In this document: positions 4,246-60,584 of the stretch, in pieces
Layout: every line of letters starts with the position of its first letter
Position numbering within the stretch: the stretch's first letter is position 1
From: Boletus sp. NGJ
Taxonomy: Eukaryota > Basidiomycota > Agaricomycetes > Boletales > Boletaceae
DNA: 64,000 nucleotides
Direction: 5' to 3'
Assembly (NCBI GenBank): GCA_019096195.1
Contig: JAGTXK010000095.1
Coordinates: 248,001 to 312,000, forward strand
Position numbers and translations under genes: made by a program
The notes under the pieces: model-generated
What the model saw: only the letters and a program-made list of their open reading frames with translations
Told to the model about the DNA's origin: nothing
Database searches by the model: none

Positions 4246-4339
4246 ACACTTAAAAAAAATACCCAAGTCCATTTTCCCATACTTAGTGTTAAAAAAGTGG
4301 ACACTGTTTGCCAATATTTGTGCCACCATTCTTATATAA

Positions 4340-5615: not shown

Positions 5616-5634
5616 AACATTTCTATTCTTCAAT

Positions 5635-6650: not shown

Positions 6651-6788
6651 AATGAAGTAGGGTTGGCTGAATGGTATCTCTGCTCTTTATACCATTTGGA
6701 GTTATGTAAGTGACATAATCAGACAGGGTTGAAGCACAGCATCCATCAGAACCTTATGTTATTTACTAAATGATAGTTGATAATATCA

Positions 6789-7440: not shown

Positions 7441-8383
7441 TGTTACACCGGGTAACAATGTGACACGTTCCTGTATAACCCCTGTTGGATTATAGGACTA
7501 GCAGGACTTGAGGGGAAAATACCTCCAGAGGCCCAAGGTTTCCTCTGACTGGGGACCAACTGCTAGCTTTACGTAGAGTCCTCTCATTACCTCTACAACC
7601 AATGGCGGAGTCTTGGATTTACCATGGTGGTGCGATCCTCTGAGAAGGATGGGCAGACCGGTGCACAGGCCAGGAGACAGTTGCCTTCCGTCAGCTAGTT
7701 CTCCTGGGCTTACTGGGCCTAATGCTGGTGGTGGAGTCCCGGGCTTTACGAGTTGCCGGTGGCGGAGTCCCAGGCTTGCTGGGTCAGTGGCGGAGTCCTG
7801 ACCAACAACAACCAACCTCTATTGGTTGTTGGAGTTGCTAAAGCTTTAGAAGCCTGTAATGGCAATGACGGCGCACAAATGTGAAGTGATGAGAAAGATG
7901 ATCACAAGCGCGAGGGCAATCACCTCCAGAGCGTAGGAGAAGGCTTCTGAGGTGAAGTGGAACCTTTGCAGGAGAAGCAGGTAGATTATACAGGAAGGAG
8001 TGTAGATCTAGGTTAGAGTTACATGAAGGGCCCGCATCCCTATTTATAGGCCTTATCCATCTAGGGCAGGCTTCATAACGAATATAGTAATCGTTAGTCG
8101 CAGACGAAAGATTACTATAAATGGATCAAGACATGAGTCAAAATGGAAAGGTAGGAATGCTAGGCTATGCACAAGAGAGCACAGCTGAGGATGCAATGTC
8201 AAACGGGTAGGTTCCTAAAAAGGGAGTTATGAATAACTTCCTAGAAAGGAGGTTATGGATGGGGCAATGCCTGCGTTGATGTTGCAGGGGAATCCCAGGT
8301 CTGAATCGAAGAATAGGTCATCCCATAGTCCTACGGAAGGTGAAGGAAGGGGAAAAGATGTGCCCCCTTCGGTAACCGTAACA
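7441..8383 (+). mobile_element. Younger solo LTR, 943 bp
   Basis: Starts TGTTACACCGGG and ends CCGTAACA, flanked by the 5-bp duplication AACTT (7436-7440 and 8384-8388). The matching site in the right arm (12858-12862, AAGTT on the plus strand) has a single copy and no insertion. Its interior matches the old LTR at 12759-13663 along nearly its whole length, for example GCTTCTGAGGTGAAGTGGAA and GTGTAGATCTAGGT, so it belongs to the same family. It has inserted into an older member of its own family in opposite orientation. It keeps many CpG sites that are TpG or CpA in the old copy. Confidence 0.93.
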
Positions 8384-8817
8384 AACTTGGGCCTTGGAAG
8401 GTATTTTTCCCTCAAGTCCAGCTAGTCTAGTAATCAACCAGGTGGTTGATTACTCAGGAACATGTCACTTGTTACCTGGCATAACATTGAGGTTAAGATG
8501 AAGCCATCCTCCCTGTTATTGGACCAGGGTTATAAGAGGCATCTGCTCTACAAGGGTAGAGCAGGTAGTAGAAACCTTACAGAGCATATGTCGCAGACGG
8601 TTGCTGCTCTGAGATATGTTGGGAGTAGGACACCTTTGTTGCTCACATATTTGTGTTAGGTGGTTATCTTAACACATATAAAGCCTCACTACAGTACTTG
8701 CTGGCTGATCAAACCCTTGCCTATCTAGAGGAAGAGAGAGTAGCAGGTCCTAGTGAAACCCAGATCACCTTCAGTTCACTCAGGTTACATGTCCCATTGT
8801 TATGAGGCCGTAACATT

Positions 8818-9220
8818 ATGTAGACTATGGCATTACTATGACCACTATAAAAGTACTACAAGAATATTACATATGAGACACTATGAGAATACTTATGTCA
8901 GACCATGGCCACACTATGAACAGACTACAAGACACTGTCATAGTACTATCAAACCACTATCCAGTTTGACCCCCACTATGAGCACTATTTTACTGTCCAG
9001 TACTGTCCAGCACTGGACAGTTAGTCCTGTTTTTACTGATGATAGTCTGTTCATAGTGTGGCCATAGTCTATTATAGTATTCTCATAGTATCTCATAGTA
9101 TCTCATACTGTAGTATTCTTATAGTACTTCCATAGTAGTTCATAGTGTCTCATAGTATGCTCATAGTACTTCCATAGTAGTCATAGTGATGCCATAGTAT
9201 ACATAGTGCTTTCATAGTGG
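8818..9220. repeat. Inner palindrome of CATAGT repeats in the left arm
   Basis: 8818-8935 reads as the approximate reverse complement of 9046-9215; for example GGCCACACTATGAACAGACTA at 8907 and TAGTCTGTTCATAGTGTGGCC at 9046. The two halves meet around ACTGTCCAGTACTGTCCAGC near 8990-9020, followed by TCCTGTTTTTACTGATG (9030-9046), a close inverted relative of the outer end of the palindrome. The same structure is present at about 12020-12425 in the right arm. This suggests that 3721-9046 and about 12193-14996 are each an older element with CATCAGTAAA-type ends. Confidence 0.75.
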
Positions 9221-9584
9221 CTTAGCAATCCTAATTCTAATCCAATTTCAAGCCAATTCTAATTTCAAATTCAATCAAATATTAATTCTATTAATCCTAA
9301 TCCTAATCTCAGTCCCAATTCCAATTCCAATTCCAATTCCAGTCCTAGTCCCAATGTCAATGTCAATCCCAATCTTTATCCTAATCCTAATGATTTACAA
9401 AGTGGAGTGTTGACTTTATGTAATAAGTAGAGAAGAATAAAATTGAGAAACAAGCAGCATCTTCCTATTGAGGAAGAAAGTTAAGATGCTGGAGTCACTC
9501 TGAATCATTACTCTGGTATCACTTGCTGGGTTGTGCCACAGCTGAGTTTGGAATTCCAAGTGGCCACATATGAATGTATTTTTA

Positions 9585-11096
9585 CACAGATGCAGATATT
9601 AATCGCTACCACATCCATAGTGATAATCTAGAGCTGGTCACAATCCTAGAGTGTGCCAATGCTGCAGGTGACACAATGCCATCTTGGTTTGTCCATAAAA
9701 AAGACAAGCCATCTGACATTCAATATTTTGGAGATTTAGTTGGCAGGTAAAATAATCTAAATATATTGTTAGAAAACATAACTCATTGTTATTATAGTTT
9801 GTCATTCTCAGTCAGATTGAACAGATTGTGAAATTGCAGCATTCTGGCTCAAGCATCACTTTGTTTCACATGCTGAGAAGCACTGTGTCAATCCTGATCA
9901 GCTAATTGTTCTGTATCTTGACAGTCATGATTCCCATGAGACAGACAAGTTCAAAGCCATTACATACAAATATAATATTATTGTCTGTGCATTCCCATCA
10001 AAAACCACCCATAAACTCCAGCCTTTGGATGTTGGTGTTTTCAGAATATTGCAACAAGCATGGACCAAGCATTGTGACACATGTCTTACTGAGGGTGTTC
10101 ATGTTGACCACTTTAACTTCATGCATGAATATATGTCAATTTGGCATGTTATTACTCCAGAACTCATTCACAAAGCATTCTAGAAGACAAGGCTCTATCC
10201 TCTTGATCCATTAGTCTTTACTGACAAATATTATACCCCAAGTCTTGCTTCCTTTAACACTGCCCATGTTCTGCCATCCTACCCAGCCAATATTCCATCC
10301 TCTCCAATCTTGGCAGCATCTGGCCATTTCACTGATTCAGACTGGGACTCAGATGGTTCTGACTTCATACTCTCTGAGTCAGATGTTGAGATGGACAATC
10401 AATTCAACAATGAATTGGAGCCAGATGTGACTGCCAACAAGGACAGATCTGAGTCAGAGCATGAGAATGCTTTCAGATCTCACACTATGAATACCTAGTC
10501 AATTGCCATGACTGCATCTGCTTCCAGTTCCTTGCACTCGCCCATCATTTTGACATTCAAACAGATGCAGACCCTCTCAAAAAAAGAGCTTTGTTATGCA
10601 TTTCAGAAGTTATATCAGCAAAATCTCAAATTGCTCAAGTTGAATCAGAGTCTACAAGTGCAGCTCAAAGCTGCTAATGCCCACTGCACTTTATCAAAGT
10701 GCAAGATATCTGAAATCCACCTACAACTTGACAACTTTAAAAAAAATCAGTCCCATCAGTCTGTCAAAGTTTGGGGCAGATTTTGTGAATGTTGTCACAT
10801 GCAGCTGGATTTCAGATATCTTGCACTTTGATAAGGTGAAGGCACAGCAAAGGGAAAAAGAGAAGGCTAATACTGAAAAGTTAGAGAAAAAGAAGGTGGA
10901 TGAGGAGGTGCAGCAATTACAGATTGAGCATAACATCAGAAACAAGCTTTTTGAATCATTTTCAACATTTCACTATAAGTACAACTATGTTACACTCACT
11001 GGCGCACTCAGAATTTCATGTGATGGGACTGTTGAAAAACTCAAGGCTCGTATTAAGGAATACCTTGCTGATTCTTCATATTCAGACATCACTTGA
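9585..11096 (+). pseudogene. Pogo-like DDE transposase, decayed
   Basis: The reading frame starts in the left arm (DADINRYHI..., then LVTILECANAAGDTMPSW) and stops at about 9750. After a possible intron it resumes near 9815 and runs into the palindrome centre. There it holds LYLDSHDSHETD and PSKTTHKLQPLDVGVF, the second and third catalytic regions of the pogo/Tigger DDE_1 family. An in-frame stop lies near 10183. An acidic, Asp/Ser-rich tail runs to a stop at 10498. Further on are a coiled-coil-like Lys/Glu segment and, at the end, DGTVEKLKARIKEYL, which resembles a SAP DNA-binding motif. The helix-turn-helix N-terminus is missing. It looks like the transposase around which the palindrome is built, now dead. 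Confidence 0.8.
10691..10834. repeat. 29-bp perfect snap-back repeat in the transposase tail
   Basis: 10691-10719 (starting TTATCAAAGTGCAAGATATC) is the exact reverse complement of 10806-10834, with an 86-bp loop. It lies inside the C-terminal part of the pogo-like frame and changes the reading frame there. This looks like a small template-switch duplication rather than a designed hairpin. Confidence 0.8.
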
Positions 11097-11333
11097 AATC
11101 CTTGTTTCACAGCTCTTTGTCAAGCCAGTGGAAAATCAAGCACTTAGAATACAACAGATAGCACACCGGTGCTGGTATTGCCACAACCTGAACCTCAAGT
11201 GATCAAAAATTTTATGCTGTTTATGCAAAAGCAAGATGGTGATGCTTGTTTATCACTTCACAGCACATATAGTATATATGGACATTTCACATCTGACGCT
11301 TACAGCAGATACACAGATTATTTTATAACCAAT

Positions 11334-11670
11334 ACACAGTGCTGCTCAGCATGTGAAACAAAGTGATGCTTCATGCCAGCTATGCTGGCAATTGCACACT
11401 CTGTTCAATCTGACTGAGAATGACAAACTCTAATAACAATGCAGTTATGTTTTCTAACACATACATTCAGATTATGTTTAGCCTGCCATACTGACTCATC
11501 CAAAATGCTTGAATGTCAGATGGCTTGATACTTTTTTATGCCCATTACCCAAGCCATGCCATGGTGTCACCTGCAGCATTGGCACACTCTAGGATTGTGA
11601 CCAGCTCTAGATGACCACTATGCATGTGGTAGCGATTAATATCTGCATCTGTGTAAAAATACATTCAGAT
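11334..11670 (-). pseudogene. Inverted copy of the pogo transposase 5' part
   Basis: The minus strand repeats the sequence encoding the first visible part of the transposase at 9585-9888, including the ATTAATCGCTACCACAT and GTCACAATCCTAGAGTGTGC regions and the probable intron. It has small indels and substitutions that break the frame. It exists only because the palindrome arm ends inside the transposase gene, so this is a by-product of the inverted duplication and not a separate gene. Confidence 0.8.
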
Positions 11671-12758
11671 GTGGCCACTTGGAATTCCAAACTCAAGGAC
11701 CGTGGCTCAACCCAGCTAGTTGATCACTCAGAGTAATGATTCAGAGTGACTCCAGCACTCTTAAAAACTTTCCCACATAGGAAGCTGCTGCTTGTTTCTC
11801 AATTTTATTCTTCTCTACTTATTACATAAAGTCAACACTCCACTTTGTAAATCATTAGGATTAGGATAAAGATTGGGATTGACATTGACATTGGGACTAG
11901 GACTGGAATTGGAATTGGAATTGGAATTGGGACTGAGATTAGGATTAGGATTAATAGAATTAATATTTGATTGAATTTGAAATTAGAATTGGCTTGAAAT
12001 TGGATTAGAATTAGGATTGCTAAGCCACTATGAAAGCACTATGTATACTATGGCATCACTATGACTACTATGGAAGTACTATGAGCATACTATGAGACAC
12101 TATGAACTACTATGGAAGTACTATAAGAATACTACAGTATGAGATACTATGAGATACTATGAGAATACTATAATAGACTATGGCCACACTATGAACAGAC
12201 TATCATCAGTAAAAACAGGACTAACTGTCCAGTGCTGGACAGTACTGGACAGTAAAATAGTGCTCATAGTGGGGGTCAAACTGGATAGTGGTTTGATAGT
12301 ACTATGACAGTGTCTTGTAGTCTGTTCATAGTGTGGCCATGGTCTGACATAAGTATTCTCATAGTGTCTCATATGTAATATTCTTGTAGTACTTTTATAG
12401 TGGTCATAGTAATGCCATAGTCTACATAATGTTACGGCCTCATAACAATGGGACATGTAACCTGAGTGAACTGAAGGTGATCTGGGTTTCACTAGGACCT
12501 GCTACTCTCTCTTCCTCTAGATAGGCAAGGGTTTGATCAGCCAGCAAGTACTGTAGTGAGGCTTTATATGTGTTAAGATAACCACCTAACACAAATATGT
12601 GAGCAACAAAGGTGTCCTACTCCCAACATATCTCAGAGCAGCAACCGTCTGCGACATATGCTCTGTAAGGTTTCTACTACCTGCTCTACCCTTGTAGAGC
12701 AGATGCCTCTTATAACCCTGGTCCAATAACAGGGAGGATGGCTTCATCTTAACCTCAA

Positions 12759-13663
12759 TGTTATGCCAGGTAACAAGTGACATGTTCCTGAGTAATCAAC
12801 CACCTGGTTGATTACTAGACTAGCTGGACTTGAGGGAAAAAATATCTTTTGAGGCCCAAGTTCCTCAGATGGGGATCAACAGCTAGCTTCTATATAGAGC
12901 CTTCCTTGGGGTTGGAGCCTGCTCTACGACCAATGGTGGAGTCTTGAACTTTGACAATGGTGGCACAGTCTGGTGAAGGCACAGACCTATTGTGTACGGT
13001 GGCTGGTGGTGGAGTCCTGGGCTTATATGGTTGCCAGTGGCAGAGTCCTGGGCTCAGATGGGCAGACCTCTGTCTGCATTGGTGTTGCTGTTGGCTAGGT
13101 ATGTGATCAAACAGTAACAAGGCCATACAAGTGCAAAGTGATGAGAAGAACGGTTACAAGCACTGTGGTAATCACCTCCAGAGCGAGCACAGGCTTCTGA
13201 GGTGAAGTGGAACCAAGAGCTTGGTAGATTACACAGGAAGTTGTGTAGATCTAGGTCAGAGTTACATGAGGGGCAAGCACCCTATATATATAGGCCTTCC
13301 CAATCTAGGGCAGGCTTCATATCATATATAATAATAGTAAGTCACAGACTAAATATTACCGTAAAGGATCAAGGCATCAATCAAATGAAGAGTTTGGAAT
13401 ACTGGGCTGTATGCGAGAGAGCACAGCTGAGGAGGCAATGTCTGTGATCAGATCAAAGGTAAAATGCATATATCAATGAAATGGAAGGGACTATGTCACA
13501 ACCAAGATGGGCATTGCCTAGAAGGGGAGTTCCAGATGGGGCAATGCTTGTGTAGGCATCGTAGGGGAATTCCTAGTCATAGAAGTTGAAGAGAAGGTTG
13601 TCCCATAGTCCGGGAGGGGGCAAAGGAAGAGAAAAAGATGTACCCCCTTCCATAACCGTAACA
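12759..13663 (+). mobile_element. Old solo LTR, right arm, 905 bp
   Basis: Starts TGTTATGCCAGG and ends ACCGTAACA, flanked by the 5-bp duplication CTCAA (12754-12758 and 13664-13668). This is the reverse complement of the TTGAG flanking the left-arm copy, so both descend from one insertion that predates the palindrome. It is uninterrupted and therefore shows the pre-insertion state for both the Tc1 and the younger LTR of the left arm. Compared with the younger family member at 7441-8383, many CG positions read TG or CA, for instance GGTGGAGTC in place of GGCGGAGTC. Confidence 0.9.
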
Positions 13664-14509
13664 CTCAATGGGTTGTGAAGCAAACAAAGAAACTAGAGAT
13701 TGTGAGGATCACTAGTGCAAGAAGAAGCAATACTTCCAGTGTTAACTTCTAGAAATAGAAGTTGATGGAGAACTGAAGATGATATACACCCAGGTTGATT
13801 AGTGTAGATCAAGGTTAGGGAAATATGTGAAGGGTGAACACCCATATAAATAGATGTTCCCTATCTAGGACAGGCTTCCTATCATATAAGGTAATATGAG
13901 ATTGAAGATCTAGTATTACTGTATGAAGGGTTTGGAACATCAGATAAATAGAGGATTGGAAATACTGGGCTGTGTACAAGAGAACACAGCCAAGAAGGCA
14001 ATGTCTATTGATTAGATCAGAAAGTGAAATAGAGAAGGAGAAATAGAAGGCTGTGTCACAGCCATGGGGGTGGTGTTGCATCGCTTAGAAGAGGGTAGGG
14101 TAGGGTGATGCTTGTATTGGTGTAGAAGGGGAATCCTGTGTCAGAGGAGTCAAAGAGGAGGTTGTCCCAGAGCCTAGGAGGAGGTGATGGTAGGGAAAAA
14201 GGTATACCCTCTTCCCTAGCCATAACACATAATGCTTCCATAGTGGCTTAGCAATCCTAATCCTAATTCAATTTCAAGCCAATTATAATTCCAAATTCAA
14301 TCTTAATTCTATTAATCCTAATCCTGATTTACAAAGTGAAGTGTTGACTTCATGTAATGAGTAGAGAAGAATAAAAATTGAGAAACAAGAGGGTGTGGGA
14401 AAGTTTTTGAAGTCTGGCTTGTTTATATAAGAATGGTGGCACAAATATTGGCAAATAGTGTCCACTTTTTTAACACTAAGTATGGGAAAATGGACTTGGA
14501 TATTTTTTT

Positions 14510-14990
14510 TAAGTGTAGGTCTACACTTTTGGTACACTTTGTGACTACACTTTTACTACACTTTGGTGCGCATTTTTGGTACACTTTTGGTACACTTTGT
14601 TTGCTACACTGTACTACACTCTGCTACACTTTTGTTTGCTTTTTTTACTACACTTTGTTTGCTATACTTTTGCTATACTCTTCCCTACACTTTTGGAACA
14701 ACATTTGACTACACCTTTGACTACATTTTTTGTATACTTTTGATTTAGAATTAAGATTAGGATTAGGATTAGGATTAGGATTAGCTTAAAATTACTACTA
14801 TGACTATGACTACTATGAATGTACTATAAATGCTATGGTACTATAATACTATGATACTATGAACACTATGAATATACTATGGATACTATAAATACACTTT
14901 CAATACTATGACACTATGAACACTATGAACACTATGACTACTATGAAACTACTATGGCACTATGAGCACTATGATGAAATCATGTATTTA
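14510..14990 (-). repeat. Subterminal repeats of the right arm
   Basis: Mirror image of 3730-4245. CTACACTTT-type repeats (14510-14745) are followed by about four ATTAGG units (14752-14785) and ACTATGA-type repeats to 14980. The ATTAGG run is shorter here than in the left arm, as expected for a slippage-prone microsatellite that has changed length since the arms formed. Confidence 0.78.
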
Positions 14991-14996
14991 CTGATG

Positions 14997-25320: not shown

Positions 25321-28300
25321 ATGCAGGCAACGGTCCAGAGACGCTCCTCGACGTTCACCCCAGTGGCTCCCCCACCACTGCAACCCTTCGTAGGTGATCT
25401 CTTCTCGGATTCGCGCTTTCATGGGTACCAGGGACCGAGTCGGAACGTGCGCATACCTCGTGCGAGCACCAACGGAGGGGGCACGGTGGCCAAAAGTGAG
25501 GACGGTGTGAGGTGTGTGGTCGCAGGAAGGGAATGTTCGTCCAACTACTCATTTCTCCGTTCGGTGTCTCCTGACGATGGTGTCGAACAGCCCTGCGCAT
25601 CCTTCGGTTGTCGGATCCGGAAGACGCAGTATTCACGGAGCAAAAGTCGGGCGTTGGGCATGGTGGGCATCGCGTCGACTTGTCCAAGAACCTCTGGGAT
25701 GGAAGCGGGCTCAAGATCGAAAGTGCAAGTACCGATGTTACGTGGTGTAGCGGCAGTCAGTATTTCTTCGCAACGCGACCCACGCCGAGGACTGAGATTA
25801 CCAACAGATTACAACAACAAGATACTGACGAGCGCGAGGAACGGCGATCTCATCATGTGGGACTTGGACAAGCCTGGGAGTACCAAGTACGGTACGTGTC
25901 TTTGACTCTCTGCTTTCATGACTAACGTGCCTGTAGAAAGAAAGGCGAAGAATCACATTCGCTCTATTCACAAGTTGTCCTGCTCGCCCATTGTCCCGTA
26001 CTATTGTATCACTGGCTCCGCGGATGGTGACATGCGCATCTGGGTACGTTGGCTTGCCCCTTGTTTTTGTGCTGGACTGATGTCGTGTAGGATTTGCGGG
26101 ACATGTCGCGTTCGGTGATGAAGATTCACCACCCCACTTCCGTCCGGTCCCTTGTCTTCTCGCCCTCCCTCTCACATCCTTTGCAAGCCGTCGTCGGTCT
26201 TGACAATGGTTCCATATACCGTTGGGACTTGCAAATGGGCCAACGCGGTCAGCTAGATCGCTTGCCCATGGCGCATACATCCCCCATCCTAGCCTTGGAT
26301 TGGTGTAGCACCTCGGTCACGAGCAAGGGTGCGGATAACGTCCCTACACAGATGGAACAGAGTTGGATCGTCAGTGGTGGGCTCGATCATACAGTAAAGG
26401 TATGTCGCTTTCATCTTGCTGCTGCCTTGCCTGATAGTGCAAAGGTTTGGGATCTCCCGGGGGCCACTACCTCATCGCACATCATGAACAAACCGACATA
26501 TGTACTACACCCTTCATATCCTGTCAGGCGTGTTCTTTGGCGGCCTGAATATCCCTGTGAGTTGGCATTAGTCTCAAACGCAGAGTTCAGCTGCGGAAGT
26601 AGTGCGGAGCTCTTGGCGAGCCCTCGGATGCAGAACGCCACGCCCAGCTTTCTTTCTACGGTCGCTCCAGCATGCGATTCGAAGGAGGCAGAAAGCAAAA
26701 CCCGCTTGGTAGGCGAGACAGTCGAGATATGGGACGTGCGCCGCGGGTGGATCGCCAAGTGGACTGTCGATGCGAGCGTTTCTGATGGCGGGGTGACTGG
26801 TACGCGTCCATCCCTGTCCTTGGCGTTGGCCAGCCCATCCTCAAGCCTTGTCCAGATGCTGTGTTCCGCGACTCTCATGCAGTTTTGGTTCAGCATGCGT
26901 CTGGGACCTTTGCCCAGATCGACCTTCGACACTCACATCGACCCATTGATGCAGTACCGAGGGTTTCTTTGTCTTGGAATAGTGTCAATGGTTCAGATGG
27001 GGCGCTGGCGTTCGTTGCTGACAAACGTTTCAAGTGGGAGGTGCCTTATGACGATGTGTGAGTTCATTTCGTTCTCTTTCCGTGCGCTATTCATGGTTTC
27101 CCGATGACAGCCACCCAGATCGGCGCTCGTTATTCGCCGACCGGAAGTCGAGGTTGAAGGCATTGGGCGACAAGAGTCGTGTTCCGGGTCTACAGAACAT
27201 GGGGATGTATGTTTCCGCACCCCCATCCGAGAACACTGGGCCGGACGTGTTCGTGAGACTTGCCAAGGGCTATGTTGTGCCCGAGAAGCCAGCAAAGAAG
27301 AAAGAAGTTTGTGCTTTGAACGCGGAGGTGGGTGCACGTCTTTGCGGATACTTTGCCAGGTACATAGGTTTACATTATGCCTGCTTAGGTTGCTATGCAC
27401 GCTGGGAACATACACGCTGCTCAAGCGTGGATCTTGTTGGGATCACTTTTAACGGACATCGTCCCAGGGTCGGTTATCGCTTCGTTACCAGCCCCAGGCA
27501 AGGTGGACCCACCGTATGCGCTCAGTCACTCAGCCTCAGCACCGGGTGTTCTCCCTTCGACTGAAGGCGTGAATGTGCATAAGAGTGGACCTGTCTCCAA
27601 ACCAGCTTCTTACCGCGCCAAGTCTGCCGATTCTGTCGCCCAGTCCGCTGCATCGCCCCTCCACTCCCCATCTCAATCGCGTATTGGTCCCCATCACAAC
27701 CATGTACAATCACCACGTTCTGCGTCGGCCAATGGTGCCAGCCCTGCCATGTCTACATTAAACGAGGACCGGAAGCATCTACGACATCATTCTGAGGCCC
27801 AACCGCCTCTACCTACCAAGCCACCCCCCAACTCGCGTAATCTGACGCCGGTATCCTCGGCGTCGTCATCACCACGTCATGTGCCTATCGCACTTCCCCC
27901 TACACCAGCTCTCCCACCCACGACAACGATGACGCCGACCACGGTCGCGCAGAGACGGCCCTCCATACTCGTGTCGACCACTTCTCCATTGCATTCACAC
28001 GCTCGCCGGCCCTCGGTCTATAGCCGCATGACGAGCACACACAGCGAGAGTCCGAGCGCAGCGAGCGTGAGCGACAAGAGCCTCCGCCACGTCGGTGAAG
28101 GCGCGCTCGACGACTCGGACTCGTCGGACGGTGCGGCGAGCGAGAGTGTCGCGGACAGCCATGCGAGCGAGATCGAGTATATCGAGTTGGCGCCTGTGCT
28201 CCCCAAGCCGAGCGTGAGCAAGGCGCGGTGTATGAGTGCCGGGCGGGTGGGTCCTGCGCATCCGAGTCCGTTGTCGCGACTCGCGGGTCAGCAGCAGTGG

Positions 28301-29753
28301 ACGGAAGAGGAGGAGGAGCCGAACCCAAGCCCGAGTCCGGGGCCGAGTAAACGCCTCGTCGAAGACGATGACGGGAGTCCCTCCCCTGTCTCGTCCGACA
28401 CGGACGGCGAACGAAGCGACGACTCGGAGGGGGATGTCGGGCGACATCGTTCGGTGAGGAAGAAATCGCAATCGATGACGCGGTCGAGGTCGCGGAAGAA
28501 TTCGAGCGTAAATGCGAGGCGGCTGAAGAGCCAGAGTCGGAGTTCGACGGTAGCGTCGCTCGCTGCGCCGTTGCTGTCGCCTGCACGGTCGTCGCACAGC
28601 AGGCCATCGTCGAGCTCTCCTAAGCACCCTCGGGGTGGGATCGGGGGGAGGGATAGTCAGAGTAGCGTTGAAACGGTCATCGCTACGTCGATTCGTGAGC
28701 AGGAGATCGAGGTGGTGCCAGTAGACTCGGGCAAGGATTTTGCGGGGGGCGAGGAGCCTGAGAGTTGGGCGGAGATGAGCTATCGGCGGAAGGTGGCGGT
28801 TGTGGAGGAGGAAGGTCAGTTACGGGAGGCGAGTTGGCGCGCGCTGCGAGAGGCTCTAGAAGACTATGCGGACCAGGTTGGTGATTCGCTTTGTTTTCGA
28901 AAGAGTACGTGGTGTTGAAGAGATACGACCATCAGGGCGATGTCCAGATGTGTGCGATGCTCGCGCTGGTGGCGCCTCAGGAGCTCAAGCTAGAGCTCGG
29001 TCGAACGATCCAATTCGTCGAGGCGTATGTCGGTGAGTGAATGCAATCTGAAGGACCTCGTTCAACGACATCTGAATCGTTTGTGCAAAAGACATGCTGG
29101 TACGATGTCGACTTCACACCTGTGCAGCATACCTACGCAAGCATTCCCGAGTGGAAGAAGTGCGAATGGCGACCAGGGTACGTTCCGGTCGAACCAAATC
29201 CATGATCCACTCTCATCACACAGCGGGCGGAATAGCTTGAGACCGTCATTTACACTGCATGCCGCAAATGCCGCAAGCCCGTGATCGCCGTTCGTTCGAG
29301 GAACCCGTTCGTGAAGACGACGCATGCGATATGTGCCACGTGCAAGGAGGCCTTGGTGAGATGTTCGATATGGTGCGTGGTTTTGATGTGGTGCGGCGGT
29401 ACGCCTGACTTGTGGTGGTGGTGGACCAACCCAAAAGTCATCTTCCCGTCCGTACCCTGCTCTTTCGATGCTCGGTCTGTTCGCACGGCGGTCATCAAGA
29501 TTGTTACAGGCGGTATTATATGGAACGTCCGATGGTCGAGCTTCCAGTACCTTCGCTGATGCGGGGGCGACAGCTGGAGCGGGAGCAGGGTGGCGAGGAA
29601 TGGCAGGGAGTGGGTGAGAGAGCGGGAGAGAGGGGTATGGCGGGACATCCATGTGCGGCTGGATGTGGACATTTTTGCTGGGCAGCTGTCGGTCAAAGGA
29701 GCAGCAATCAGGATGGGTTTCTGGATGGGAAGACGAGAGGAAGTTCGCACTAA
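25321..29753 (+). CDS. SEA2: SEA/GATOR2 complex subunit Sea2 (WDR24/Rtc1 homolog)
   Basis: Vacuole/lysosome-associated regulator of TORC1 amino-acid signalling. From ATG 25321 (MQATVQRRSS) the spliced product has an N-terminal WD40 propeller: KILTSARNGDLIMWDL, YCITGSADGDMRIW, PLQAVVGLDNGSIYRWDL, SWIVSGGLDHTVKVWDL and VGETVEIWDVRRGWIAKW. A helical part follows (MHAGNIHAAQAWILLGSLL). Next comes a long Ser/Pro-rich acidic region (about 27500-28780), then LRLYADQ-type helices (ALREALEDYADQ, then ELKLELGRTIQFVEAYV). The C-terminus is a RING-like zinc module: CRKCRKP, CATCKEA, RCSIC, CSVCSHGGHQDCY and HPCAAGCGHFCW. Around ten short introns were placed. It converges with HEM13, 91 bp away. The order of domains matches WDR24 throughout; the long Ser-rich insert is larger than the ordered parts require. 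Confidence 0.92.
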
Positions 29754-29844
29754 ATTGTTGGTCAAAGAAACGTGTCGGAATAGAAGTTGTAGGTAGGTAA
29801 TCGTAAGAATGTACTAGGTTCATGCGTAGCATCTCGACCTATTC

Positions 29845-31052
29845 TTAGTCGGCCCAATTCCTCGGCTCTTTGAGCACTTTCACCATTTCTGCTTCTTCCG
29901 TGTCTTGGTCCTCGACCCCGACTTCGCTACAATACTCCCACCTCGCCTCTGGAGGCAATCCTACCAAGACATTCTCGGCCTTCACTCCAGGTGCAGCAAG
30001 CCCAAATTTGGTTCCCCTATCCACGACGAGGTTGAACTCCACGGCGCGACCACGTCTGAGCAGCTGCCACCGCCTCTCGGATGGTACGAGCGGGTCGTTC
30101 ATCCGCCCATCCAAAATACCTATAAAGGATGGCAGAAAACTGTCACCGAGAGACGCGACGAGCTCAAACAAGGCTTCCCGAGTGCTCAAACGAGCGACAG
30201 TCTCCTCCGATACGTCCGGGGACTGTGCGCCGAGCAACGCACGCATCGCGTCGGAATCCATGTCGTCGAAGCGGACGCCGCCGATCCCTCGGTGTTCGTG
30301 CCTGTGCGGGATGAAGAGGTAGTCGTCGCAGGATGTCTTGAAGGGGGAGTAGACAGAGGCGGCGGTGTGGGGGGCGTCGCTCCATGCGTCGCAGGCAGCC
30401 TTGAGCGTCGTGTGAAAGTGACAAAAGTCGGGCTCGTTGACGTAGAAGGGTGTGAGGTCGGTGATGACACCGAACCACCATGCGAGGACGACGGGTTCTG
30501 GGTTGAGATGGTCGTGGTCGCTGGACGTGGGTGCTGTTGGGAGGGGCGCGTCGAGGACTTCAAAGTAGCGGTAGTTGGCGTGAACGCCTGGGACGCGGGG
30601 GTGCCGTGGGTGGATGATGAGGCTGAGGCCGGCTGCGAAAAAGGGGAGGCTTTTCTCGATGTCTTTGAGGGCTGTGTGAGCTGTGCTCATCTGCTTGACG
30701 GCGGCGGGCGGGAGGATACCGTTTATCGTCGAGATGTTGACGCCGGCTTTTTCGATAGGGTGATCATCTACCCGTCGTGTGGATATACGTGAGGAATGAA
30801 CTCATGATTGACGGACGGGACGCGCGTACTAATTCCGATGGCCTGAGATGTGGCGTCGGAGGGCGGGAATGTGGAGGAAAGACCACCTCCGCCTTCGTCG
30901 CGGGTCCACGACTCACGTCTAAACTTTTGGCCTGACCCATATGTTTCGAGCTTGGTCACGATGGCCGATTGCAGCTGAGTGATGTAGTCGATCACGCGGT
31001 CGCGCATAGGCTGGGGAGCAGAGGAGACCAGCGATATCGAGGTGCTAACCAT
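29845..31052 (-). CDS. HEM13: Coproporphyrinogen III oxidase, oxygen-dependent
   Basis: Converts coproporphyrinogen III to protoporphyrinogen IX by two oxidative decarboxylations in haem synthesis; the yeast enzyme is cytosolic. ATG at 31052; one intron at 30768-30829 (62 nt) joins exons into exactly 381 codons plus stop. Family landmarks in order: SWTRDEGGGGLSS, EKAGVNISTINGILP, GLSLIIHPRHPRVPGVHANY, WWFGVITDLTPFYV, FCHFHTTLKAACD, YLFIPHRHEHRGIGGVRFDD, RRWQLLRRGRAVEFNLVVDR, GTKFGL, VLVGLPPEARWEY. Length and motifs are normal for the family and no targeting peptide is apparent. It is divergent from YAE1 (513 bp between start codons). Confidence 0.97.
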
Positions 31053-31565
31053 GGTGAATGGGGCTCAAGATGCCCAGGAGACTAGATGTAGTAGTAGCTT
31101 CGTGGATCTTTGTAGTTTAGACTTGACTCTCAGTTCAGTCCAATTCAGAGGACGGATGATAACGATCAAACTTACCAACCTGAGCAGCCCAGCACTGCGG
31201 ACTCATTGCAGCCTAACGCTTCCAAAATTAGAGACGTTCGGAGGTTGCCAGTCTCTGGGAAACTTGGTCTCAGCACGGGATAAGCCCCATGATGTTCGAA
31301 CCTCAAACCGTCGTCTTGCAATGTCATGGAGCGCCGTTTTGTTTTTTTGCTAATGAATCCATTTGCCCTACCTTGACGAGGTCATCCTGGGAGTAATGTT
31401 GTAATGTTGTAATGAACCCAGTCTTAGTCCTAATCAGATTCAAAGCCAGCCGTTATCTTCCTCTGAAACGGGTTAGACAAGTTTGTACAGAGCGCTGCCA
31501 GTGAAACTTGACGTTTCCCAGAGCGACAAAGTTCACCTCCAATCCTCACCCAAGGACATCGACGA

Positions 31566-32136
31566 ATGGATCCCGATTCGCCATGGGAACAGAACCCTCA
31601 CAATGATCATGCCCCAGAGGCTGAATGGACCAAGATCACCTCTGAGTTCACCAACGTAGGCTGCCGTGACCCGTCATTCCTCGCTGGATCGTGTTCATTT
31701 CTTATCATAGTCTGGGTACCGAGAGGGCATAATTGCAGGAAAAGAGGCCTTTTTACAATCAGGCTTTGACGCTGGTTTCGCCGACGTTGGCGTACCTCTC
31801 GGTCGAGAGCTTGGCAACCTCCGTGGCGCAGCAGCTGCGATGGGGTCTTTCTTGAACTCTCAGAAGCCGGATTCACTGGAGCTCCAAGAACTGCGTCGCA
31901 TGTCTTCTATTCTCTCAACCATACGATTTTCCGACATCACACCCCGCGACCTTGAAGCTGAACAACATGCCAAGGAACATCTTAGCTTTGACGATCACGA
32001 TCCAGCGATCATCGAAGACGCGGGGCCGATGGGGGAGACAGTACCACAGGAAAAACAGACGGTAGAGGACGTCGCAAAACTGAAAGAAAGACTGGCCTTG
32101 CTCAGCGCAAAGCTCGGGTTGCCTGTCCTGACTTGA
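31566..32136 (+). CDS. YAE1: Yae1-like protein, Fe-S adaptor
   Basis: In yeast Yae1 acts with Lto1 to bring the Fe-S assembly machinery to the ABC protein Rli1 in the cytosol. Exon 1 (31566-31655) and exon 2 (31711-32136), joined over a 55-nt intron, give 171 residues. The conserved core is right after the junction: SGYREGIIAGKEAFLQSGFD, then AGFADVGVPLGRELGNLRG, the Gly-spaced helical repeat that defines the Yae1 domain. A charged region and a C-terminal helix (AKLKERLALLSAKLGLPV) follow. The second exon is present again as a broken copy at 40458-40856. Confidence 0.9.
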
Positions 32137-33059
32137 GATACTGGGCTGCCTATTCACACGAACATCGCACAATTCCAAACACGCTTTTCATGGCTGCCGT
32201 AGCGGAGGTCACGTTATCGAACGGCTTAAAATGAGTACCATGCGTGCTTATCGCGTCCATAACACAACTTTCCGACTCTAACTATAATAACCGTGCTACC
32301 GCATGGTTTCTTCATGATTGCCGCCCAGGTATGCAGTTATATGCGGGTGTTCGCACTCATCGGTTTCGCAGAAGCGCGATCCCGTGATCTATATCAGGCC
32401 GAAAGCTTGTCGGAGGCGACGCTGTTTGCGGGGCGTGCTTTATATAAGTGGATCACTAGAACGTAACAGTAACTTTGTGGTTCATAGGCAAGGACCCAGA
32501 TCACTCTTACTGTTTGGTATTGCTCACTTATCGCGACTCAGCATCGCACACGATTGTACCCATGACCTGAAGTCACAACAGGATTCCGGTTTCCCAAGAG
32601 CTCCTCCGAGATGTCCGTGTCTCCAGGATCGCGTTAGTCCCCAATATGGGCCACCTCTTGACTGCACTGATATCTTCCCCACCCGATCTCGCAGCAGTCA
32701 AACCCATGGATGTTCGTGCGTACCCCTGTCCGAGCCGCTTCCCGGAATCATCCCGATGAAGGAACGCTCCGCACTCCTTTGTCACATCCATTCCTACCAC
32801 ACGGCATCAGTATCTTCTCTTGATAGTGAGTGTCTACTCCGAAGTATTATTGGGTTGTTGTTGACCAATCGGTATTTCCAGCCACTCAGCGGCCTGCTTC
32901 CGCGACCGCATTGTCTCGATGTATTCACCTTGCCAGCATCGTCCCATTGCGATTGTACCTAGTCCAAGAGGGGGTCCCGTGGTATGACCTCCATACCTCA
33001 TCTTCACACCGTTCCTGTTTTCCATGAGGCGGACGGACCGATATCAGCTTGGGCTGTGA

Positions 33060-33066
33060 TATTTAA
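33060..33066 (+). promoter_or_regulatory. TATA-like element of GH18 copy 1
   Basis: TATTTAA, 73 bp upstream of the chitinase ATG. The second chitinase has the same element at 41639, also exactly 73 bp before its ATG, with CCTGCGACGA and CAGCTACCCTTGCAGCTC conserved between box and start. Confidence 0.5.
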
Positions 33067-33132
33067 TGCCCTGCGACGAACAGCTACCCTTGCAGCTCGT
33101 TTGCGCACCTACCTCTCTCTTCTTTCAGTGCC

Positions 33133-35171
33133 ATGGTCTCCTTTCGCTCTGGCGTGACCATATTTGCGGTTCTCTCTTCCTTGTTTGGATCGCTCTATGC
33201 TGTTCCATTAGCGGAAAAGCTTGAACGTCTCAGTCCCTCTGCTCGTGGTTTTTTAAAGAGGACTACACCAGCTCCGCCTTATTTCGTGGCCTACAATGAC
33301 AAATGGCTCAATCCGTTACCCAGTTCTTCCGACCTCACTGTAAGCGAGAATTGTCCGTCCCCCGCCGAGTTCCCCGATCTGATGGTCACTCACCCAAGGG
33401 ATACAATGTTTTGCAAGTATTTATTGGATAGCGTTTTGTAGCGCGACTAACTTATTTGCAGTGCCCTCACCTTTTTGTTGGCCTCTGGTGCAGTCGACGA
33501 GGCTCAGAATTGGGAGGGGCTGACGTCCAGCCAGCGTTCCTCCTACCTGTCAGAGTATAACGCCGCTGGAATCTCGCTGATCGTTTCTGCATTCGGGTCC
33601 ACTGAGACGCCGACCTCGTCGGGGTACGATGCTGTGACCACGGCAAACACCATGGCTGCCTGGGTGATCCAATATAGCTTTCAGGGTATTGACGTCGACT
33701 ATGAGGTGCTGCCTGAGTGATTTTTTTTATTGACGATGTGACGGTAACTTACGAAGACGTTGGGGATTAGGACTTTACTGCGTTTAACAGTGGAGGTGGC
33801 TCTGCGGAGACCTGGCTCATTAGTTTCACCCAGCAGCTCCGCACGCAGCTTCCCCAGGGACAGTATATTCTGACTCATGCCCGTGAGTCGTCTGTGGTTG
33901 CATTTAGTTCGACAAGGTCTGACGTGTACCTCGTAGCTGTCGCGCCATGGTGAGTGCAATCGAATTATAAATAATTGGTGAACTGAATTGAAACAAGGTT
34001 CTCTCCCACTATATGGAGCGGAGGAGGATACCTAGCGGTCGATAAAAGCGTGGGATCTATGATCGACTGGGTGAGTAAATGACATTCGATATCCTGTGGG
34101 TTTCCGCTGATCGGTTTTTCAGTACAATGTCCAAGTATGTTCAATAATTCATTTCATGGACGATCATTGATTCATTGATGAAATGACACAGTTCTATAAC
34201 CGTGAGTGATCGAGCTAAATGACCCCGAACTTGATATACTGAAAACCACTTATACTCGGTCGACAGAGGGAGCCACGGAGTACACCACGTGCGCTGGCCT
34301 CTTGACGGCCTCTTCGTCTACCTGGCCCGAAACTGCCCTCTTCCAGATCTCTGCCAATGGTGTCACTCTCGACAAACTCGTGATCGGGAAACCAGGCACA
34401 ACCTCGGACGCAAGCAACGGATACATAGACCCCTCGACGCTCGCAACGTGTGTCTCTCAAGCTGCTACCAGTGGATGGGGTAAGTCTTCCGACCGCTCTT
34501 CCATCTGAAGAGAGCCGCAAACTCACGCGCAGCAACGTGACAGATGCTGGTGTGATGGTGTGGCAGGTGCGTCGTGTTGTGTTACATTTGTTGTGCCCGA
34601 AACGAAGGTTGAATCTGGTGTACGTAGTATCCTGATGCGACCTCGACGTGGATTGAGACCGTCCGAGGGAACACGTGGCCTGTCACCAGTTCCCCATCGC
34701 CGACCTCGACCACGACTTCGACGACCTCGACCTCAACGACCGCAACCTCGACCACGACCACGACCACGACGACAACCGCGTCGCCCACGGCCACATCAAC
34801 GTCGAGCTGTACTGGCGTCTCTGCATGGGTCAACAACGTCGCCGTAAGTCACTCCACGCGACCTATCATACCAGGCCCTTCGTGTACTCAAATTTTCCAT
34901 CCCATATAGTACGTCAGCGGGAACCAATGCACCTACAAGTGAGTCAAGATACCCCACGCCCCCGTCTCGGGATGGATTGGGTCGGATGTTGATACGACCT
35001 TTTTCTTCCAGTGGCGATCTCTGGACTGCAAACCAGTGGAACCAGGATGAGGTACCGGGAGGTAAGCTGCGTTTGGTTTTGCTCTCGCTGAGCTGTGGTA
35101 ATCCTCATGCGCGCATGCACTGCAACACTCAAGGAGTCTCTGGTGCCTGGAACTTGGTCGGTGCATGTTAG
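33133..35171 (+). CDS. Secreted GH18 chitinase-like enzyme with chitin-binding module
   Basis: Hydrolyses chitin or related beta-1,4-GlcNAc glycans outside the cell. ATG 33133 begins a signal peptide (SGVTIFAVLSSLFGSLYA), then a short propeptide ending FLKR, a Kex2-type site. The GH18 barrel has LTFLLASGAVDEAQNWEG, YSFQGIDVDYED (catalytic Glu in DxDxE), GQYILTHAPVAPWFSPT, YNVQFYN and AGVMVWQYPDA, the last two being usual GH18 substrate-site strands. The first Asp of the consensus DGxDxDxE is Gln here. A Ser/Thr-rich linker with a run of nine Thr leads to a CBM5/12-like module (SAWVNNVAYVSGNQCTYNGD, LWTANQWNQDEVPGG) ending in GAC and TAG 35171. About twelve short introns, including micro-exons of 18 nt (GYNVLQ) and 12 nt (YNVQ). 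Confidence 0.92.
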
Positions 35172-48156: not shown

Positions 48157-49579
48157 ATGGCCTCCAATAACACGAAATCAGCGGATGTTGTCAACCCAGG
48201 CATACTCTCGCGCGCCCGGACATTCTTTACTGTCTTGGGAGGTGTCTATGTCCTCGTTGTACTGCTCCTGCTGGTTCCATACATTCAGTCCCAGTGAGCA
48301 AGATCGACAAATTTACCCTGGATCATCTAGATAGCTCACGCCGGAGTTGCGATCCAAAGTCTCATATATATGAATGCGTTGAAATTGCCGTGGAATGCAC
48401 ACTTTGATGCACCAGAACGATACGGTTTGGCGCGTACGTCCTCTAATCCCGATTCTTATGCCAGCCTGCTGACTCGAACGCGCTCGCAGCCGGAAAGACT
48501 TTCAACTTCAAGATTGCCACCCCGGATAATCACACCCTCGGGGCGTGGTTCGTTCTTTCTGACGATCACTATCGTTCATTACCTTTTCCTCCGTCACCCT
48601 CTGCTGCAGAGGCACATCTCTCGGAAGCACTTCAGTCGCGCCCTACTGTGATATTCTTCCATGGAAACGCTGCCACCCGTGCACTTCCCGTGCGGGTTCG
48701 GCAATACAGTGCGTTTACATCGAGGCTCCAAACCAACGTGTTAGCCATCGACTACCGCGGCTTCGCCGACAGTCAAGGGTCTCCGAGCGAACGTGGTCTG
48801 GTGACAGACGCGCGTGCGGCCTTTGACTGGTTGATTTCCAATGGTGCAACACCAGAGGATGTCCTCATCGTGGGTCACAGCCTGGGCACTGCTGTTGCAT
48901 CGTCCCTTGCTGTGTCCCTCTCCGAAGAAACGATCCGATTCAGGGGACTCGTGTTGATGTCCCCGTTCACGTCCATGCATACCCTTGTGGATACGTACAG
49001 TGTATTCGGCCTATTCCCTGTCATGCTTCCGTTGACGATGGTACCCCGCGCTGCCGGTGAGTACATGTAGTATTGGATACAAGCTCGGGAGCTGACCACT
49101 TCCAGAACTCTACAAGACATTCCTTCAACACAAATTCGATACATTGTCGATAATTACAGTGAGGCTCTCTCATCCCTCTCCGTATCGAGCTGATCATTGA
49201 ATGTGCATCACAGAGTGTCAAAGTACCCGTGTTGATTGTACACGCGGAAAATGACTGGGATATCTCACACACACATTCAGATGCGCTTTTTGATGCACTG
49301 ATAGATCCTTTTTTGCCCTCCGTAGAGGCACTTCCACGCGAGGTGGGGTCGTGGACGGACGAGCAGTGGGGCACATACCAGCAGCAAATGGTGAGAAAGC
49401 AAGAGGCCCGCGAACGACTGTTGATCACGACGGACATGCCCCACTTTGGCGTCATGGACACGTTCGCAGCGTCTGGCGAAACGATCGTGCTCTTGAAGAC
49501 TCTGACAGGGTCCCATAATGAGGTTGGGACATTGGAGGGCACCCAAGAGGTCATACGAAAGCTGTTTTCGTTGGCTTGA
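48157..49579 (+). CDS. ABHD12-like alpha/beta hydrolase, copy A
   Basis: Predicted membrane-anchored serine hydrolase; animal ABHD12 is a lysophosphatidylserine lipase, but the fungal substrate is unknown. ATG 48157 (MASNNTKSADVV) leads to one membrane helix (FFTVLGGVYVLVVLLLLVPY). After two introns: LPWNAHFDAPERYGL, FNFKIATPDNHTLGAWFVLS, VIFFHGNAATR (oxyanion hole), NVLAIDYRGFADSQGSPSE, VLIVGHSLGTAVA with nucleophile Ser, and LVLMSPFTSM. Two more introns follow, then VPVLIVHAENDWDI with the acid and TDMPHFGVMD with the His. TGA at 49579. The triad is complete and no break was seen, so the copy should be active. Confidence 0.9.
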
Positions 49580-52660: not shown

Positions 52661-54087
52661 ATGGCCTCCAATAACACGAAATCAGCGGATGTTGTCAACC
52701 CAGGCATACTCTCGCGCGCCCGGACATTCTTTACTGTCTTGGGAGGTGTCTATGTCCTCGTTGTACTGCTCCTGCTGGTTCCGTACATTCAGTCCCAGTG
52801 AGCAAGATCGACAAATTTACCCTGGATCATCTAGATAGCTCACGCCGGAGTTGCGATCCAAAGTCTCATATATATGAATGCGTTGAAATTACCATGGAAT
52901 GCACACTTCGATGAACCAGAACGATACGGTTTGGCGCGTACGTCCTCTGATCCCGATTTCTAGTAATGGCAGCCTGCTGACTCGAACGCGCTCGCAGTCG
53001 GAAAGACTTTCAACTTCAAGATTGCCACCCCAGATAATCACACCCTCGGGGCGTGGTTCGTTCTTTCTGACGATTACTATCATTCGTTACCTTTTCCTCC
53101 GTCACCCTCTGCTGCAGAGGCACGTCTATCGGAAGCACTTCGGGCCCGTCCTACTGTGATATTCTTCCATGGAAACGCTGCCACCCGTGCACTTCCCGTG
53201 CGGGTTCGGCAATACAGTGCGTTTACATCGAGGCTCCAGACCAACGTGTTAGCCATCGACTACCGCGGTTTCGCCGACAGTCAAGGGTCTCCGAGCGAAC
53301 GTGGTCTGGTGACAGACGCACATGCGGCCTTTGACTGGTTGATTTCCAATGGTGCAACACCAGAGGATGTCCTCATCGTGGGTCACAGCCTGGGCACTGC
53401 TGTTGCATCGTCCCTTGCTGTGTCCCTCTCCGAAGAAACGATTCGATTCAGGGGACTCGTGTTGATGTCCCCGTTCACGTCCATGTATATCCTTGTGGAT
53501 ACGTACAGTGTATTAGGCCTATTCCCGGTCATGCTTCCATTGACGATGGTGCCCCGCGCTGCCGGTGAGTACCTGTATTGGATACAAGCTCGGGAGCTGA
53601 CCATTTCCATTTCCAGAACTTTTCAAGACATTCCTTCAGCACAGATTTGATACATTGTCGATAATTACAGTGAGGCTCTCTCGTCCCTCGCTGCGTCGAT
53701 CTGATCAATGAATGTGCATCATAGAGTGTCAAAGTACCCGTGTTGATTGTACACGCGGAAAATGACTGGGATATCTCTCACACACATTCAGATGCGCTTT
53801 TTGATGCACTGATAGATCCTTTTCTGCCCTCCATAGAGGCACTTCCACGCGAGGTGGGGTCGTGGACGGACGAGCAGTGGGGCACATACGAGAAGCAAAC
53901 GGTGAGAAAGCAAGAGGCCCGCGAACGACTGTTGATCACGACGGACATGCCCCACTTTGGTGTCATGGACACGTTCGCAGCGTCTGGCGAAACGATCGTG
54001 CTCCTGAAGACCCTGACAGGGTCCCATGAGGTTGGGACATTGGAGGGCACCCAAGATGTCATACGAAAGCTGTTTTCGTTGGCATAG
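52661..54087 (+). CDS. ABHD12-like alpha/beta hydrolase, copy B
   Basis: Near-identical paralogue of the gene at 48157 with the same five-exon structure, membrane helix and complete triad (GHSLGT, HAENDWDI, MPHFG). Changes are mild: VLSDDYYHSLP for VLSDDHYRSLP, ELFKTFLQHRF for ELYKTFLQHKF, YEKQTVRKQ for YQQQMVRKQ and one residue fewer before EVGTLEG. Introns differ more than exons, including a 9-nt expansion (TTTCCATTTCCAG) at the fourth. TAG at 54087. Both copies look intact, consistent with a recent duplication kept under selection. Confidence 0.9.
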
Positions 54088-58833: not shown

Positions 58834-60475
58834 CTAGACAACAGGGAGCCCCACAAGTCTTTTACCATTTCGTTCATACTTTCCGGAATGGGATCTCTCG
58901 TTATCAGACTTCGAGGGGTGGTGGTATTGACCATCCGAGCGCTTCTGGTGGCTCTTTCCAGGATGATACTTCCCATCGTCAAACTTGGCGTCGGGATGAT
59001 ATTTTCCATCGTCGAAGCGCCTTTCATGGTCCTTTCCAGGGTGATACTGACCGTCGTCATACTTGGAGTCGGGATGGTACTTGCCGTCATCGAACTTGGA
59101 GTCAGGGTGGTACTGACCATCATCAAAGCGCCTCCCGTGGTTCGTTCCAGGGCGATACTGACCGTCATCGAACTTGGGATTGGGATGATATTGACCGTCG
59201 TCATAACGCTTCTGACGGCTCCTCCCAGAGTAATACCTCGTATCGTCATACTGTCGCCGCCTAATGCCTCCAACTATACCGGTGACCGTTGATGTCACAC
59301 CTGAGTCCGTGGCGGTTGCGGTGCCCGTAGCGGTCGTTGTATCCGTGCCAGTCGCGGTGCCTGTGATGGTCGTTATGCCCGTAGCGGTTGCGGTCGTTGT
59401 GTCTGTGCCAGTTGCGGTACCCGTACCAGTTGCAGTGCCCGTGACAATCGTCGTGGCCGGGGCGGTCGTTGTGCCCGTGACGGTTGCGGTGGCCGTGACA
59501 ATCGTCGTGGCCGGGGCGGTCGTGGTGCCCGTGGCGGTCGTTGTATCCGTGGCGGTCGTGGTGCCCGTGGCGGTCGTGGTACCCGTGGCGGTTGTGGTGC
59601 CCGTGGCAGTTGTTGTGTCCGTCGCGGTCACAGTCGCAGTCGTGATGGACGTGGTAGTGTCTGTGGCTGTGAGTGATCCCACGATCCCTGTCACAGTACC
59701 CGCGGGATCTGATGATGTGGTCGTCGCTGTAGCGGTTGTTCCTGTTGCAGTCGCAGACGTGGTAGTTCCCGTGGCCGTAAGTGATCCCACAATTCCTGTC
59801 ACAGAACCCGCCGCACCAGATGATGTCGTCATCGTGGCAGAAGTTGTTTCCGTGGCCGTGACTGATCCCACGATCCCTGTCATAGAAACTCCAGGATCTG
59901 ATGCTGTCGTCGTCGTTGTCGCAGACGTGGTGGTCATGGCGGTAGTGGCGGTAGTGGTGGACGGATCCTGCGTAACCGAAAGTCCCACGGTCGAGATGAA
60001 AGTAACCACTTCGACGCCAGACGTCGAGGTCGGGCTGGTGGTCTGAGGAGTGTACTGCCCGTTATTATACGTCGTCGTGGGGTACCCCGGGTGATACTGC
60101 CCGTCATCGTACGTGGTAGTAGGGTAACCGGGATGATATTGACCGTCATCGACGTAGGTAGAGCTGGGGGGGTCGGCCTGTGTCGCACTGGCGGTTTGGG
60201 AATTCTCGGGAGTGTACTGCCCGTTGTTATACGTCGTTGTCGGGTATCCTGGATGGTATTGTCCATCATCATAGCGTGCCTTGTGGACCCTGGCACGATG
60301 AAAACGGCGAGCGTGCCGGGAAGTCGAGTCGCGCTACAGGGCTGCATGAACAAGGAGACGACATAGCAATAAATGAACCAACTTCTGCCATCATGCCGTT
60401 GGTGGCGGGATGCGCGGCCGCGACCGCCAGGCAAAGCGCGAGGAGAAGGGTGAAGCGAGAATTGAGTTGGACCAT
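58834..60475 (-). CDS. Secreted DDGQYHP-repeat protein, candidate Kex2-processed precursor
   Basis: Exon 1 (60475-60383) encodes a signal peptide (FTLLLALCLAVAAAHPATNG). A 49-nt intron (60334-60382) joins it in phase to exon 2 (60333-58834), 530 residues in all. After a basic stretch (RHARRFHRARVHKAR) come five repeats of the YDDGQYHPG / YNNGQYTP type separated by GYPTTT. Next is a Thr/Ala/Val-rich region of about 230 residues with TGIVG recurring four times. Then about nine (Y/F)DDG(Q/K)YHP units follow, set off by RRR, KR, RR, RR, KR and KR. The last KR leaves the tail LVGLPVV. Dibasic sites between repeats are the hallmark of fungal Kex2-processed repeat proteins; the Thr-rich part may be O-glycosylated. 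Processing and function are inferred. Confidence 0.82.
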
Positions 60476-60577
60476 GACGATAGTGATGTGGATAATGAAT
60501 GTGAAGACGCTAGTGATAGTGATGATGGAGGAAAGACGAGGCGAGGGAACAACACAGCGGAGAGGGGGGGAGCTAGA

Positions 60578-60584
60578 TTATATA
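60578..60584 (-). promoter_or_regulatory. TATA box of the repeat-protein gene
   Basis: TATATAA on the minus strand, 103 bp upstream of the ATG at 60475, with no competing ATG context in between. A clear TATA box in a fungal gene often goes with strong, regulated expression. Confidence 0.55.

Follow-up and report, generated by a model that had tools for sequence, protein, structure and literature searches.

The minus strand of the window, the whole 64,000-nucleotide stretch of Boletus sp. NGJ DNA that was analysed, carries a gene predicted to encode a hybrid repeat protein, in which a tail of repeats would be processed by Kex2 while a long part bearing the same motif stays uncut. We hold this reading with somewhat better than even confidence. 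The repeat protein is real at the sequence level, and cutting of its tail by Kex2 is likely, judging from the placement of the basic sites; secretion, cleavage, glycosylation, location and function are what we infer for it. Precursors in which a signal peptide is followed by three or more repeats lying between Kex2 sites are known as KEPs (PMC6339444, PMC7329392), which are described as widespread and largely of unknown function (PMC9769878). The gene probably belongs to this known kind, but joins the predicted cut tail to a stalk part with the same motif that would stay uncut, so that it might yield free peptides and a larger glycoprotein that share one motif.

On the minus strand, the start codon at 60475 and the stop at 58834 of the gene model match the coordinates given in an earlier sequence-only reading. 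The repeat frame (60333–58834) comprises 499 open codons, and a hydrophobic start with the ATG lies in another frame, joined to the repeat frame only via an intron. GT–AG pairs at least 35 nt apart were enumerated at the 5′ end; three of the pairs tried gave more than 400 aa, one of them keeping the whole hydrophobic start and a second most of it. The pair that keeps the whole start is the predicted 49-nt intron, whose removal would bring the hydrophobic start into the frame of the repeats; its donor, GTTGGT, lacks the purine usual at position +3 of 5′ splice donors. Candidate donors for 3′ splicing are present in exon 2, and the predicted 3′ end may differ. On this predicted splice the signal peptide claimed earlier was recovered as a signal-peptide-like hydrophobic start, judged by composition and hydropathy. 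Over the stalk, positions 59234–60061 also hold long open frames in other frames (270 aa on the plus strand, 266 aa on the minus strand), in all likelihood shadows cast by its repeats.

Table 1. Features of the predicted repeat-protein gene, in window coordinates.
Feature	Position	Strand	Details
Predicted gene	60475-58834	−	530 aa; a single intron of 49 nt
TATA-like box TATATAATCT	60575..60584	−	109 nt upstream of ATG; consensus match only
Start codon and signal-peptide-like stretch	60413..60475	−	aa 1-21, GRAVY 1.64, cleavage site by eye
Predicted intron, phase 0	60334..60382	−	49 nt, GTTGGT...CTGTAG; GT-AG pair enumeration
Exon 2, including stop	58834..60333	−	aa 32-530
N-terminal repeat block	60046..60273	−	aa 52-127, 3 DDGQYHP + 2 NNGQYTP
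Thr-rich mucin-like stalk	59263..60018	−	aa 137-388, four TGIVG motifs, last at stalk end
RRR, putative Kex2 site separating stalk from tail	59254..59262	−	aa 389-391
Predicted peptide 1	59134..59205	−	aa 408-431, 24 aa, two repeats
Predicted peptide 2	59023..59127	−	aa 434-468, 35 aa, three repeats
Predicted peptide 3	58945..59016	−	aa 471-494, 24 aa, two repeats
Predicted peptide 4	58864..58938	−	aa 497-521, 25 aa, one degenerate repeat

The N-terminal block contains the five repeats counted in the earlier reading, resolved into DDGQYHP and NNGQYTP forms, with zero dibasic sites between them. The Thr-rich domain described there is also present, at 252 residues (44% Thr, 52% Ser plus Thr) rather than about 230. 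Eight repeats are recognizable in the tail, and the claimed number of about nine is reached only by including a degenerate QYDDTRYY. GQ occurs in 10 of the 13 repeats (8 DGQ, 2 NGQ) and DGK in 3 of the 8 tail repeats, and the N- and C-terminal blocks contain 13 and 14 Tyr, respectively. The 530-residue protein has no Cys after residue 21 and no QFQFD. KR or RR lies at residues 40, 389–391, 406, 432, 469, 495 and 522; all eight adjacent basic pairs end in Arg, with KK and RK absent. These sites, which had been thought to separate the tail blocks, are indeed there, yet they stand directly before only four of the eight tail repeats, the other four being preceded by a single Lys, and each of the eight thus follows a basic residue. 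No GPI-like C-terminal signal was found in the predicted protein, which ends LVGLPVV with only seven hydrophobic residues, and a GPI-anchored adhesin was discarded as a candidate for want of such a hydrophobic signal at the predicted C terminus.

Basic sites at repeat starts exceed chance. With the repeat cores fixed and the linker residues shuffled 100,000 times, at least four cores were preceded by a dibasic in 0.0004 of the shuffles, and all eight had a basic residue of either kind in front in 0.00005. Taken alone, the number of xR pairs that the tail contains was only borderline (0.05 of 20,000 whole-block shuffles). A detector that calls at least three similar fragments between dibasics, run on stop-to-stop frames of at least 60 aa in 124 kb (the window plus six 10-kb stretches), was positive in 1 of 941 frames, that of the gene itself. 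Among the seven regular tail units, 108 of the 168 core codon pairs differ (80 silent, 28 replacement), where the choice of units by motif match, with the degenerate eighth omitted, lowers the number of core replacements and the pair counts are non-independent. The next three codons after the core, 63 pairs, hold 0 silent and 49 replacement differences, the latter raised by the presence of linkers of two kinds. A one-step null predicts a silent share of about 0.18 in the core codons and 0.21 in the linker codons; for random codons the figure is 0.055. With a silent share far above the null, the tail cores appear to be old and to have had their amino acids conserved. A pooled Nei–Gojobori ratio was saturated and was dropped.

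In silico cutting after KR or RR gives pieces of 20 aa, 350 aa, 16 aa (starting with Gln), 26, 37, 26 and 27 aa, dibasics included, and a 7-aa end; terminal dibasics were removed for the final peptide lengths. The earlier reading expected short, very similar peptides, an expectation that the dibasic sites do not support: cuts there predict four peptides of 24, 35, 24 and 25 aa with 2, 3, 2 and 1 repeats, all very hydrophilic (GRAVY −1.9 to −2.4). The first three would start with YDDG or FDDG. As every second tail repeat on average follows a lone Lys, the dibasic cuts are out of step with the repeat unit. For some Coprinopsis precursors expressed in Pichia, cuts after single Arg and products ending in Lys have been reported (PMC9769878), and unit-length peptides through single-Lys cuts are therefore possible. 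The 350-aa piece carries all five repeats of the N-terminal block together with the Thr-rich stalk; since dibasic sites are absent between these repeats, they would stay on the large Thr-rich product. At the seven predicted cuts Asp occupies P2′ in four, and an acidic residue occupies P1′ in none and P4′ in one; acidic residues are described as enriched at P1′, P2′ and P4′ in cut yeast Kex2 substrates (PMC2515848).

The genome contains a Kex2-like gene on contig C22, with a Peptidase_S8 match (E 2.8e-30) adjoining P_proprotein exons, and this contig is the sole place in the genome with a P-domain match. Together with the signal-peptide-like start and the placement of sites beyond chance, this S8 and P-domain gene supports the earlier assignment of the protein as a Kex2-type repeat precursor. 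The precursor would enter the secretory pathway, and Kex2 would cut after RR (residues 40–41), after the RRR before the tail and after each KR or RR within it. Trimming of the Kex1 type would follow, yielding the four hydrophilic, Asp/Tyr/His-rich peptides and the short Gln-starting peptide, with the N-terminal repeats remaining on a stalk product of about 350 residues that is probably O-mannosylated. Both products would be extracellular; their likeliest place of action is the wall or surface of the hypha, or else the peptides would be secreted and aimed at other organisms. Peptides from KEP-type precursors have been seen by mass spectrometry in four Agaricomycetes, and six kep deletions in Coprinopsis cinerea are reported with zero visible phenotype (PMC9769878). 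In Coprinopsis, such peptides are reported to persist when a single kex gene is deleted (PMC9769878).

A more speculative extension, to which we give only a small chance, is that one gene supplies the motif both tethered and free. Five copies would sit on a wall stalk glycoprotein, and diffusible, multivalent tail peptides (2–3 copies) would co-assemble with them, for example through Tyr cross-links or Asp/His metal bridging, to form either a patterned coat outside the cell or a signal for self-sensing. A motif that is shared by a mucin-like stalk and, perhaps, by released peptides hints that wall glycoproteins and secreted peptides are connected in a way open to testing.

The placement of dibasics directly ahead of cores, all of them xR and beyond what linker shuffles produce, argues against the main alternative, that of an uncut mucin-like surface or wall glycoprotein whose repeats are structural or sticky, perhaps tyrosine-cross-linked, and whose dibasics are a by-product of a basic-rich linker. 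We consider this possible but doubtful. It is consistent with an N-terminal block that has the same motif free of dibasics, with the single Lys ahead of four of the eight tail repeats, with the Tyr richness of both blocks and with one short tyrosinase-family match in the genome, and it sits less well with the absence of a GPI-like tail and with the Kex2-like gene.

The hybrid Kex2-processed reading finds its closest relatives among the KEPs, with which the gene has in common the signal-peptide-like start, at least three similar KR/RR-bounded fragments and the Kex2-like gene, as KEPs are described in PMC6339444, PMC7329392 and PMC9769878. The predicted peptide sizes fall in the published range of 3 to 352 aa (PMC6339444). 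Unlike in KEPs, the sites frame blocks of one to three repeats rather than each repeat, and a 350-aa Thr-rich part retains more copies of the motif without sites. Three KR/RR-bounded fragments have a similarity of at least 0.6, under a rule specific to this analysis and distinct from the programs of the surveys, and a fourth is degenerate. The 2019 survey requires that repeats make up at least 15% of the protein (PMC6339444); here they make up 13.6% (24 aa × 3) or 18.1% (× 4) of the 530 aa. The 2020 survey allows no separated sequence above 100 aa in the wording of its results, its methods applying the limit to repeated sequences (PMC7329392), and the gene fails this size filter as worded in the results on one fragment, that of 350 aa. 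We treat the 100-aa limit as a survey filter and not as a defining KEP trait. Given that the 350-aa part fails one filter and the repeat share is borderline for the other, the hybrid layout may be under-counted. The repeat of the gene may coincide with KEP type G-1, for which a repeat logo and 49 mostly mushroom genera are given (PMC7329392).

The GH128 protein 365456 of Coprinopsis cinerea resembles the gene in having a Kex2-released peptide and a larger retained part, but is described with a single peptide and an enzyme domain, in place of several repeats and a mucin-like stalk (PMC9769878). Rsp3 of Ustilago maydis, which decorates the hyphal surface, is likewise repetitive and secreted, as is predicted for the gene, and is set apart from it by the description of a Cys-rich region and different repeats (PMC5923269).

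It is improbable that the protein is a PIR-like wall protein with the Gln of DGQ esterified to β-1,3-glucan. Yeast Pir proteins are described as O-glycosylated, with a dibasic site after the signal peptide and before the first repeat (PMC8975586), and the gene shares with them a DGQ in many repeats, the Ser/Thr-rich composition and a predicted site (RR at residue 40) between the signal-peptide-like start and the first repeat. The GQ present in most repeats fits this assignment, but QIxDGQ[IV]Q is absent and with it the leading Gln, without which a two-repeat Pir1 of C. albicans is reported to fail to be incorporated into the wall (PMC12359137). The DGK repeats and the lack of QFQFD and of any Cys beyond the signal-peptide-like stretch also separate the gene from yeast Pir; Pfam gives zero matches for the protein, and the sole PF00399 match that the genome yields lies on a different contig and scores below cut-off.

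The repeats of Rep1-type repellents are hydrophobic, whereas those of this gene are strongly hydrophilic. The analogy with the Ustilago repellents drawn in the earlier reading stands for the layout, which fits, and is limited to it because of the GRAVY values of the predicted peptides. A Rep1-like repellent coating aerial hyphae, with the same layout of repeats with Kex2 sites and a longer part, is accordingly very improbable, and the genome has 21 hydrophobin-domain matches, so a repellent substitute is not obviously needed. Rep1 of Ustilago maydis shares with the gene the repeats with Kex2 sites and the longer part, but that part is described as lacking similarity to the Rep1 repeats (PMC2515848), and the retained part here carries the same motif; the repellents are assigned a water-repellent role (PMC7329392). 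Least credible of all is a dikaritin-type cyclic RiPP precursor with Tyr cross-linked by UstYa proteins, which shares a signal-peptide-like start, repeats, dibasics and Tyr/Asp-rich cores, but matches to UstYa (PF11807) are confined to contigs C89 and C141, with none on C35 (where an intron-split gene could escape), zero known RiPP tailoring families occur among the 41 ORFs scanned in the window and the 9 scanned in the 20 kb rightward, and the predicted peptides exceed the typical 8–14-aa repeats described for three known precursors (PMC7329392).

DNA patterns and protein searches found no second gene of this hybrid repeat type in the fungus's own genome, where an intron-split gene could be missed. 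The loosest DNA pattern, of GQYHP type, gave 20 exact matches against 2 for a backwards control, 6 of them in the gene and 14 elsewhere; a stricter pattern gave 10 matches, 9 in the gene (control 2), and a third placed 9 of 9 in the gene (control 0). The 14 off-gene matches and the one from the stricter pattern lie in stop-to-stop frames that measure 23 to 120 aa and hold only one GQY each, and are for that reason not counted as repeat genes; the off-gene excess of the loosest pattern (14 against 2) is read as composition, as the frames are without repeats. Two matches from the protein searches were set aside: a weak one on contig C89 (E 0.04, two internal stops) and a reverse-strand shadow (E 2e-6, eight stops). 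Pfam, NCBIfam and PDB sequence searches with the protein gave zero matches, and structure prediction from the single sequence was uninformative (mean pLDDT 38.0 and 48.7). The tail was run once against prokaryote contigs and once against viral ones and found no relative, and none is expected since the gene is fungal. A literature search by the motif letters DGQY, DDGQY, GQYHP, DGKYHP, GQYTP, DDGKY and NNGQY found no fungal repeat precursor by title and abstract starts; the motif matches included DDGQY in HtrA2 protease work and a single GQYTP in Cunninghamella lipid enzymes, the sole fungal title.

The Pfam scan of the gene's surroundings covered 41 window ORFs (33 of the 57 with at least 150 aa, together with 8 below that length) and, over the adjoining 20 kb on the right, a further 9. 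Matches in the window comprise alpha/beta hydrolases (two ORFs, 48–54 kb), coproporphyrinogen III oxidase and pieces of Tc1-type transposases, and those in the right flank RRM/eIF3g, MFS and AAA ATPase; weak matches below cut-off were WD40 and Mre11-like. To our knowledge, the scanned neighbour families include no known RiPP tailoring partner. The two hydrolase ORFs (48447–49070 and 52967–53650) are on the same strand with similar scores and are perhaps a tandem duplicate.

Elsewhere in the genome, contig C89 has two UstYa (PF11807) matches with HxxHC motifs about 7 kb apart (26253–33754), a possible dikaritin-type cluster, with no repeat precursor by the detector rule in 20 kb near the pair. 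The 21 hydrophobin-domain matches genome-wide fit a filamentous fungus, and nine of these domain matches form a dense cluster on both strands within 19 kb of contig C119 (100155–119014). Within the window, a large inverted repeat spans 3721–14996, with outer arms (3721–5430 and 13327–14996) that are 94–97% complementary in pieces and a nested inverted pair (8404–9486/11759–12841) at 99%. The region is low in GC, contains short tandem repeats and encloses the Tc1-type transposase pieces at 5.6–6.7 kb; the structure is probably one of nested DNA transposons.
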